From Vibrio proteolyticus NBRC 13287 (GTDB lineage Bacteria > Pseudomonadota > Gammaproteobacteria > Enterobacterales > Vibrionaceae), in the NCBI RefSeq assembly GCF_000467125.1, contig NZ_BATJ01000007.1, forward strand, positions 62,001-126,000: a DNA stretch of 64,000 nucleotides, given 5' to 3'. Shown one piece after another: positions 53,424-56,082 of this stretch. Below the pieces are notes generated by a model. It saw nothing but the letters and a program-made list of their open reading frames with translations. It searched no databases and had not been told where the DNA came from. The stretch's first letter is position 1, and each line of letters begins with the position of its first letter. The position numbers and the translations under genes were made by a program.

Positions 53424-54563
53424 ATGAAAACCTCTATAAAACTTTTAACTTGCTCGATTCTCCTTGCTACCGGTTCTGCATCTGCAGCCAACTACGCTAT
53501 CGAAGCCCGTGGTGAAGCCATGGGTGGTGTCGGTGTTGTGTCAGCAAACTTTTTAACTGCGCCTTTCTACAACCCTGCGTTAACTGCCATCTATCGACGT
53601 AACGACGATGTTGGTATGTTGATCCCAAGCGTAGGCTTAACCTATAACGATGAAGATGGCATGGTCGATGAACTCGATCGCGTGTCCGATCTTATCGACA
53701 GTCAGGATCCGAACCGAATTCCTGAACTGGAACAGTCACTTGATAACCTTACAAGTACTGAAGTCAAAGCTGACTTAGGTGGCGCTGTCGCGTTTGCGAT
53801 TCCGAACAAATTTGTGGCCGCAAACGTGTTTGGCAAACTTTACACGGAATCGTACGCGACTCCGCAAATCTCTGATGATGCCGATATCGAAACACGCGCT
53901 CGCAACTCGACGGTTAACGCCGTTTCGATTGGCGTAGCGGAGGCCGGTATCTCATTGGCAAAATATCAGACATTCTTAGAGCAGCACATTGCTTTTGGTG
54001 TAACACCGAAACTTCAGCGTATCTACACCTACGTTTATGAAGCCAGCTTAGATGATTACGATATCAAAGACATCCGAGACAACGACAAAGCGGAAACCAT
54101 GTTCAACATGGATGCGGGTGCACTTTGGTTTTACGGCCCATTTCGAATTGGCTTTGCTGCCACTAACCTGGTCAGCCGAGACATCGAAACGAAAACCATT
54201 GCTTCACGTAATGGCGGAACGTTGAAATACGAATACCAGATGAAACCGCAGTACACCGTTGGTGCCGGTATCGTCGCAGACTACTTTACACTGAGTGTCG
54301 ATTACGATCTGAATGAAGAAGAACGCTATAAAGATTTTGATGACAATACCCAGTGGATTAGGGTAGGTGGAGAAATCGATGTCCTGCGTCAATTGCAACT
54401 GCGTGCGGGTTATAAGAAAAACTTAGCGTACAGTGACCAAGATGGAACGGTAACAGCCGGTATTGGTCTTTCACCACTCAACTTATTCCAAATGGATATC
54501 GGTGCCAGTTACACTAACGAAGATGCGATGGGGGTATACCTCAACTTCCTGGGTAGCTACTAA
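53424..54563 (+). CDS. vxrD: TraF-like outer-membrane protein (VxrD position)
   Basis: 379 residues with a signal peptide (1-21, ending ASA). 'ARGEAMGGVGVVSANFLTAPFYNPAL' at the N-terminus and a barrel-like C-terminal half ('QLQLRAGYKKNLAY', 'GTVTAGIGLSP.NLFQMDIGASYT') fit the chromosomal TraF_2 family of FadL-like outer-membrane proteins. The name comes from weak likeness to plasmid TraF; no conjugation genes are near. It follows vxrC by 61 bases. A terminator-like hairpin stands directly after it, before vxrE. Confidence 0.8.
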   Translation: MKTSIKLLTCSILLATGSASAANYAIEARGEAMGGVGVVSANFLTAPFYNPALTAIYRRNDDVGMLIPSVGLTYNDEDGMVDELDRVSDLIDSQDPNRIPELEQSLDNLTSTEVKADLGGAVAFAIPNKFVAANVFGKLYTESYATPQISDDADIETRARNSTVNAVSIGVAEAGISLAKYQTFLEQHIAFGVTPKLQRIYTYVYEASLDDYDIKDIRDNDKAETMFNMDAGALWFYGPFRIGFAATNLVSRDIETKTIASRNGGTLKYEYQMKPQYTVGAGIVADYFTLSVDYDLNEEERYKDFDDNTQWIRVGGEIDVLRQLQLRAGYKKNLAYSDQDGTVTAGIGLSPLNLFQMDIGASYTNEDAMGVYLNFLGSY

Positions 54564-54597
54564 TAGTGGAAGAACAACGTATTTACGTTTATAGTCA

Positions 54598-54624
54598 GGC
54601 TCCTTTTCCACAGGAGCCTTTTTT
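54598..54624 (+). terminator. Terminator hairpin fused to the vxrE ribosome site
   Basis: GGCTCC (54598-54603) pairs with GGAGCC (54613-54618), followed by six T that run straight into the vxrE ATG at 54625. The AGGAG ribosome site of vxrE is the 3' arm of the stem. So the element can end transcription and also hide the ribosome site. Confidence 0.85.
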
Positions 54625-54774
54625 ATGTTTAACGATATTCCGACACTGTCCCACCAAGAGCAACAAGAAGCTGTAGAGCGAATCCAACAGCTAATGGCAA
54701 CGGGTATAAGCACTGGTGAAGCCATCAAAATTGTGGCTGAACAAATCAGACAAGAGCAGAAAGACAAAGAATAG
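54625..54774 (+). CDS. vxrE: UPF0181/YoaH-family small protein (VxrE position)
   Basis: 49 residues: '[20 protein letters not shown]' then '[21 protein letters not shown]' matches E. coli YoaH closely. V. cholerae carries a UPF0181 gene at the end of its vxr operon, so I use vxrE. The AGGAG ribosome site lies inside the terminator hairpin just upstream. All-helical and cytosolic; function unknown. A weaker hairpin follows the stop. Confidence 0.85.
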
Positions 54775-54796
54775 GGCGGTTAACCGTCCTTTTTTG
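54774..54796 (+). terminator. Terminator of vxrE
   Basis: GGGCGGT and ACCGTCC (one G-U pair) with a two-base loop and six T, starting at the last base of the vxrE stop codon. Confidence 0.7.
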
Positions 54797-56082
54797 TCTC
54801 TAATGCAATATAACTAAATTTAGTGTCTCTAAATTCCTTATTTAGTTGAGTTATCGCCTAAGTAAATCTTCACTTCAAAAATAGTTGAATGCTTTGTAAG
54901 TCACCATGTAAGACTTACAAAACCATGGAAATCCAAATATACTCTTTATAAACAACAAGATAACGCAATATAATTACCTGGAAAGATCTGGATTGAAGGT
55001 GTAGATGTAACTTAATTACACAATCCTCAAGGTAAGACAATTAACCTAGTGATTTATCCTGCCAGCTTACGTTGTCACTCATCATCAATAAAACCAGTCA
55101 TTTTAAAAGTGGTGAGTACTCGCATATATCATGTCGTCACTAAACGTTGTGACGATGTCACGACGTTGGTTTGGTTAACCACATTCAAGAAAGGGAAAAC
55201 GATGGAAACGTCAGTTACAGGATTGCGACGTTATAGTCTCAAAAATGAAATATACATGTGGTTGCATTTGGAGGTTTAGGTTACAGTAAGCGTGTTCTTT
55301 GTTTCATGGACATTATCTTCTTACTGTGTCGTATCGGCGTCACTTTTAGCCACTGGAAGGAGTGGCTTTTTTTTAGCTGTAGGAATTTAGTAACAGTTTA
55401 CTCTGTATCTCTTAGACGCAATGATAAGAGCCCATCAAATGATGGATGTCTAACGCGCGTGCACGTCATCAAATGACAAGGTGTTTGTTCCGGAATTCTC
55501 TTTGTCAGAATGCGTAACAACGTAATCCACAAAATGCGCCTTGATGTTACTTCGGTTCGCAGCTTTCTAAGCAATACGACCGTTGGTTTTAAAGTACTGG
55601 ATTCTAAAGTCACTAAAATTTTAAGGTAACTTAAGTTAGGGAATCCGAATCCCATTTAAATGTCCTGAACTTAAAAACGATTAATGTCTCGGCCACTCAT
55701 GAGAATTAGCACCGGTGAGGCCCTCAAAGATCAACATGCTCATTAAGCAGAAGAGGACATTTTAAAAGGATATTACTAAATTGCACACACAGCTTAAATG
55801 CGTATTATCTATCTTATGTTAAATTAACTATGAGTTAGCTTGGATTCTGATTCGTTTTGCTCCCCTTACTAACTTTAAGGTGGCTCAGATTAAACATAAC
55901 TGTATTTACCATAAAATAGCTAATAAACAGTTTGTTAATCTGCGATTCTCAACTGTTTATTACGCGAATAAGAAAATAGTTTAATATCGGATGAACTTTT
56001 CACCTTGTGTGTCGTAAGCTTTATAACGGCTAACCAGTCGTTCAGCAGTACGGTTATTCAAACCTATATACAAGGAAAGATT
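54797..56082. other. Gene-poor 1.3-kb region
   Basis: Several open frames exist on both strands but none has family-like sequence and most lack ribosome sites. Visible elements are a hairpin-rich 55.14-55.17 kb (CGTTGTGAC / GTCACGACG), a 25-codon ORF at 55202-55279 preceded by AAGGG, a two-hairpin unit ending in a strong terminator at 55374, and the 10-mer CATCAAATGA repeated at 55433 and 55468. No transposase, integron attC site or phage gene could be recognised. It may be eroded DNA, regulatory RNA, or both. Confidence 0.6.
55263..55374 (+). ncRNA. Candidate small RNA with two hairpins
   Basis: ACAGTAAG (55283-55290) can pair with CTTACTGT (55320-55327), and AGCCACT / AGTGGCT (55348-55367) forms a terminator with eight T. 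TATACA at 55251-55256 could be the -10 box. No coding gene uses this terminator. Start position is a guess and no known RNA family was recognised. Confidence 0.35.

Follow-up and report, generated by a model that had tools for sequence, protein, structure and literature searches.

The small gene vxrE stands at the end of the vxr operon, and its ribosome site forms part of a hairpin that has the shape of an intrinsic terminator, which raises the question of how it is expressed. The features concerned, in coordinates of the window (the whole stretch of DNA analysed, 64,000 nucleotides long), are the following.

53424-54563, + strand: vxrD, the upstream gene, 379 aa, TraF_2 family (open reading frame list; Pfam TraF_2, E 1.2e-80)
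54561-54563: stop codon of vxrD
54567-54572, + strand: predicted -35-like hexamer TGGAAG of a vxrE promoter, weak (3/6 against TTGACA), 17 bp 5' of the -10-like hexamer, which is the place conserved in relatives
54590-54595, + strand: -10-like hexamer TATAGT, shared by 105 of the 120 Vibrio that have vxrD before vxrE
54597-54604, + strand: 5' arm of the hairpin, AGGCTCCT (direct reading and scan, folding)
54601-54605, + strand: predicted transcription start of vxrE's own mRNA, placed by the usual hexamer-to-start distance, 6 to 10 bases past the hexamer, and by folding
54605-54611, + strand: hairpin loop, 7 bases (direct reading and scan)
54612-54619, + strand: 3' arm of the hairpin, AGGAGCCT (direct reading and scan, folding)
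54612-54616, + strand: ribosome site AGGAG, wholly within the 3' arm (direct reading; SD duplex energy -6.6 kcal/mol)
54619-54624, + strand: T-run of six T, the first paired and the last adjoining the ATG (direct reading)
54625-54774, + strand: vxrE, a 49-residue UPF0181/YoaH protein, ATG at 54625 (open reading frame list, Pfam, NCBIfam)
54773-54790, + strand: terminator-like hairpin at the vxrE stop codon (scan); 52 of 68 non-redundant relatives have a terminator-like site close to that stop

The terminator shape between vxrD and vxrE, a stem followed by six T, and the inclusion of the whole AGGAG in the 3' arm were both claimed by an earlier note on this DNA, and both are borne out by direct reading, the former also by the scan. 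The same note proposed that vxrE is carried only by read-through transcripts, the hairpin being a switch through which a melting factor would raise transcription and translation together. In V. cholerae, where vxrE is VCA0569, vxrABCDE has been reported to be co-transcribed on the basis of RT-PCR and RNA-seq (PMC4441509), hence some read-through exists; the genes and their order are the same, vxrE is treated there as a co-transcribed member, and the passages of that paper on the operon mention neither a separate vxrE promoter nor a hairpin. Deletion of vxrE had only a slight effect in the mouse (index 0.70; PMC4441509), and vxrC, vxrD and vxrE were not required either for sporadic T6SS activity (PMC10268840) or for the activation of VadR (PMC7695739). 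Among open-licence papers, judged by titles and the starts of abstracts, none was found on a vxrE promoter or hairpin, and 'vxr' is absent from the main text of a direct-RNA paper on V. parahaemolyticus.

One account of the hairpin is that it is the ordinary terminator of vxrABCD, in which case the ribosome site would lie in the stem by convenience and the masking of it would have no selected role, with an own promoter for vxrE being possible. The shape is indeed common, as the scan listed seven terminator-like sites in 7 kb against 7.1 expected by chance, and 39 of 68 non-redundant relatives have, like the window, a GC-rich stem and then a T-run that is terminator-like by a simple rule. The hairpin itself, with its 8-bp stem and 7-base loop, folds in isolation at -12.9 kcal/mol (z -4.4), a value equalled by none of 200 shuffles, although the whole 161-nt region around it is no more stable than its shuffles (z -0.6). 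What sets it above chance is its high opening cost and its conservation with covariation. Opening the vxrE ribosome site (bases -16 to -6 before the ATG) in read-through RNA costs 13.7 kcal/mol. In a rule-based set of 71 other starts within 190 kb of this genome (median 5.6 kcal/mol), only two reach that value, and such rarity speaks against mere convenience.

Comparison was based on upstream DNA from 185 distinct genomes, 136 of them Vibrio. vxrD is directly upstream of vxrE in 120 of the 136, the arrangement being otherwise in 16, and counts over these 120 come from related genomes and hence are not independent. At least 60% of the SD bases are paired in the predicted fold of the read-through RNA in 117 of the 120. 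Of the 68 non-redundant sequences, 41 have a common register (17 adopt another, and 10 neither); in these 41, there are 26 double-changed cells against 6.4 in shuffled data, 92.1% of cells are paired against 84.8%, and five of the eight stem pairs show change on both sides; shifting the pairing partner along abolishes most of this covariation signal. When arms were swapped between species, a test that took in all 68 sequences, the native fold beat the mean swap in 64, with a median gain of 3.6 kcal/mol, and a small mixed group of seven was not best with its own arms. The 68 sequences contain 55 distinct arm pairs, the covariation extends outside the AGGAG core, and the loop ranges from 3 to more than 20 nt. 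The earlier note would have been undermined had the stem not been conserved together with the ribosome site; across Vibrio the two are kept together, with covariation. Exceptions are few: the read-through opening cost is below 8 kcal/mol in seven of the 120 genomes, in two of which (L036 and L108) the hairpin barely forms, and the lock in V. rotiferianus is weaker, at 6.7 kcal/mol.

A covariance model of the element, built in part from the same genomes and searched with strict filters, gave the vxrE place as the best match in its own genome (E 0.03, the next being 1.5 and 9.5). Across 61 genomes of the genus, 33 had a match at E <=0.1, at 35 places, 29 of which were at vxrE and six elsewhere, the latter with E values of 0.007 or worse. 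A search of Rfam with E up to 1 gave no family for the hairpin. An RsmZ-like Rfam match at 54670-54798, at the end of vxrE, was taken as a chance hit (24.6 bits, where the gathering score is 44; E 0.014).

The T-run and the lock can be told apart by their distributions. The last six bases before the ATG contain five or six T in 65 of the 120 Vibrio, three or four in 12 and at most two in 43, and the median opening costs of these groups are 13.7, 13.1 and 14.1 kcal/mol respectively. A T-run is present in V. harveyi, V. owensii, V. diabolicus and V. atypicus; in V. splendidus, V. lentus, V. crassostreae, V. tasmaniensis and V. chagasii the stem reaches or nearly reaches the ATG and there is none. 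As the lock is undiminished where the T-run has been lost, it outlasts the terminator. The element thus resembles an intrinsic terminator in having a GC-rich stem and then T in many species, but differs in that the stem is kept without the T-run in 43 of 120 genomes and overlaps both the ribosome site and the predicted start. The full-strength lock in those 43 genomes, the extension of the stem to the ATG in relatives of V. splendidus and the covariation outside the AGGAG core make it unlikely that this is an ordinary terminator.

A route to vxrE expression that avoids the hairpin is suggested by the sequence on its upstream side. The -10-like hexamer adjoining the hairpin is TATAGT in 105 of the 120 Vibrio with vxrD upstream and a near variant in the other 15, its position having been set by hand in seven of the 120; among 23 named Vibrio loci, TATAGT is at the same place in 22, and TATTCT in the 23rd. 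Alignment on this hexamer of the 45 non-redundant genomes with a long gap makes two blocks stand out, the hexamer itself and a CTNG whose first base lies 24 bases upstream, where a 17-bp spacer would put a -35 element. CTNG occurs at this fixed offset in 27 of the 45, and in six at most at any other offset from -45 to -10. In the 67 short-gap genomes (gap 39-45 nt), the -35-like block sits within the last codons of vxrD, where the leucine codon in the block is CTT in all 67 (23 of 23 when non-redundant) and nearby synonymous sites vary; CTT makes up 24% of the other vxrD leucine codons in these genomes. In the long-gap genomes, the same codon is CTT in seven of 53, with leucine encoded there in 46 of the 53.

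The best -35 at a distance of 16-18 bp averages 3.68 matches of six, compared with 2.63 at shifted positions, and scores only two or three of six in 36 of the 120 genomes. By the sigma-70-type measure of -10 and -35 elements 16-18 bp apart, the conserved pair lies at 17 bp across genomes. A consensus promoter scan of this region of the window did not list TGGAAG-17-TATAGT, the -35 being below threshold. The bases from the hexamer to the predicted start (54596-54603 in the window) are G+C-rich in most relatives. G+C-rich discriminators are known at stringently controlled promoters.

The predicted start bears directly on access to the ribosome site. With a start at +7 after the hexamer, the first base of the 5' arm would be reached or passed in all 120 Vibrio, and its last base passed in three. 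As the predicted start is within or just past this arm, vxrE's own mRNA would lack most of it and the ribosome site would be accessible. The median opening cost over the 120 is 13.7 kcal/mol in read-through RNA and 2.6 kcal/mol in RNA starting at +8, the two kinds of RNA differing by at least 2 kcal/mol in 117; in the window, the values are 13.7 and, from the predicted start, 2.4-3.3 kcal/mol. Access was measured first by mean unpaired probability and then by opening energy, and both are reported: the former gives a smaller contrast, 0.11 against 0.44, and exceeds 0.5 in only 49 of 120, because the freed ribosome site still partly pairs with the coding region. At its other end, the predicted mRNA would be only about 190 nt long, as the terminator-like hairpin at 54773-54790 starts within the vxrE stop codon.

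We therefore return to the proposed switch, in which vxrE would be expressed only by read-through, and a factor, or temperature, would melt the hairpin and raise transcription and translation together. It is consistent with a ribosome site covered by a hairpin with a T-run, and with the report that vxrD and vxrE are co-transcribed in V. cholerae (PMC4441509). However, the stem is split by the conserved predicted -35/-10 pair, and the hexamer survives in two genomes in which the lock has decayed. That vxrE is carried only by read-through is challenged by this predicted promoter: the earlier note regarded a separate vxrE promoter starting after 54603 as evidence against it, and the predicted start, 54601-54605, comes close to this, being inside or just past the 5' arm. 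Joint control of both steps is not the conserved feature, as 43 of 120 genomes lack the T-run and keep the lock. Nothing was found that points to a melting factor, and the lack of an Rfam match to the hairpin also tells against the switch, although an undescribed element is possible. Altogether, we regard the switch as quite improbable.

On the simplest account, which is also the probable one, the hairpin is not a melting switch but an insulator against read-through combined with a promoter, and often fused to a terminator. Polymerase arriving from vxrABCD would meet an intrinsic-terminator shape right before vxrE, and any message that read through would carry the full hairpin, with the 3' arm masking the ribosome site, such that vxrE would be poorly translated. 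Expression of vxrE would instead come from its own sigma-70-like promoter, with the -35 at 54567 and the -10 TATAGT at 54590, and the mRNA starting at about 54601-54605 would escape most of the 5' arm, leaving the ribosome site accessible. Output of vxrE would thus be independent of the vxrAB operon. Sequence comparison shows the hairpin and its covariation, the conservation of the -35/-10 pair and its spacing, and the link of these to the vxrD-vxrE junction; from these features we infer an active promoter, its exact start, termination at the T-run and a block to translation. That the palindrome is instead a DNA operator, bound by a regulator at the vxrE promoter start, is very improbable, as this inverted repeat, while it does adjoin the downstream side of the conserved -10-like hexamer, has arms that co-change (55 distinct pairs in 68), where one regulator would conserve its site, and a loop that varies from 3 to more than 20 nt.

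Arrangements of this kind are known from phage. In the account given in PMC3014915, a hairpin masks the ribosome sites of the T4 lysozyme gene e and of I-TevI in long upstream transcripts, and promoters just upstream start within the 5' strand of the structure, yielding short transcripts that are free of it and are translated. Like that of T4 gene e, the stem of vxrE is predicted to include the ribosome site in the long transcript, and a candidate promoter of its own is at the matching place. The two differ in that gene e uses phage late promoters, with timing being the point, whereas vxrE is chromosomal with a predicted sigma-70-like promoter; furthermore, the vxrE hairpin is terminator-like through its T-run in many species, and the likeness is drawn here from sequence and folding. 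In IS10 and other insertion sequences, read-through from outside folds over the ribosome site and the element's own promoter avoids the structure. There the arrangement protects the transposase of a mobile element, whereas vxrE is fixed in the chromosome, as the last gene of an operon.

Changes in gene order provide a set of natural contrasts. In 14 of the 16 Vibrio without vxrD upstream, vxrE comes 9-34 nt after vxrC, opening the ribosome site costs 1.4-7.0 kcal/mol, and TATAGT is missing from the last 60 bases; scoring found TATGAT at about the hexamer distance in four of these 14. The other two appear to have retained the promoter while the lock decayed: L055, with a divergent neighbour and no vxrD found, has TTGATA-17-TATAGT and an opening cost of 4.6 kcal/mol, and L024, with vxrC 122 nt upstream and no vxrD, has TTGCGG-17-TATAGT and a cost of 5.6 kcal/mol. 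Two genomes of other genera have vxrD upstream; one (L174) has GTGACA-17-TACAAT together with the lock (10.8 kcal/mol), and the other (L157) is without the lock (3.9 kcal/mol). The order is vxrC-vxrE-vxrD, as against vxrC-vxrD-vxrE in the window, in 13 genomes from a sister genus (g2), where vxrC and the start of vxrE overlap by one base and the cost is 0.9-5.6 kcal/mol. No vxrD was found in ten genomes of another genus (g106), where the cost is 2.3-7.5 kcal/mol.

With somewhat less assurance, we favour a wider reading: that this is a genus-wide chromosomal insulator of about 40 bp in which four functions are combined, namely the end of the upstream message, a translational lock on read-through, a promoter and the ribosome site of the next gene. 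The start inside the stem would free vxrE's own message from both brakes, and with vxrD in front of it, vxrE would be regulated separately from the VxrAB operon, whereas behind vxrC it would truly belong to the operon. If true, a read-through lock of the phage style would be a conserved and evolving feature of a bacterial chromosome, and deletions in the vxr operon would have to be read differently, since vxrE would not simply follow VxrAB. Natural experiments are offered by the vxrD-vxrE and vxrC-vxrE orders, by the T-run kept or lost and by the promoter kept where the lock has decayed, and a search rule is suggested: a conserved -10 adjoining a hairpin over the ribosome site may point to a hidden promoter of a small gene at the end of an operon.

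VxrE itself matches UPF0181/YoaH in Pfam (PF03701, 91.4 bits against a cut-off of 23.5, E 2.6e-26) and YoaH in NCBIfam (NF003476, 87.4 bits against 72); a search for a solved structure of a relative found none, the best E being 0.82. The neighbouring vxrD (53424-54563) belongs to the TraF_2 family, and a relative is encoded in 1934 plasmid records, some of them annotated as conjugal transfer protein TraF; no named V. cholerae copy was among the plasmid records listed. At genus level, a VxrE match was found in 111 of 118 genomes, at family level in 231 of 247 and at order level in 71 of 295. Four Vibrio genomes with a listed completeness of about 100% (G013, G068, G085 and G111) had no VxrE match in either search, and in these the gene may be dispensable or have diverged. 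In one further genome (G019, locus L110), the vxrE frame diverges from the family past about residue 35, as if frameshifted, and both the hexamer and the hairpin are retained.
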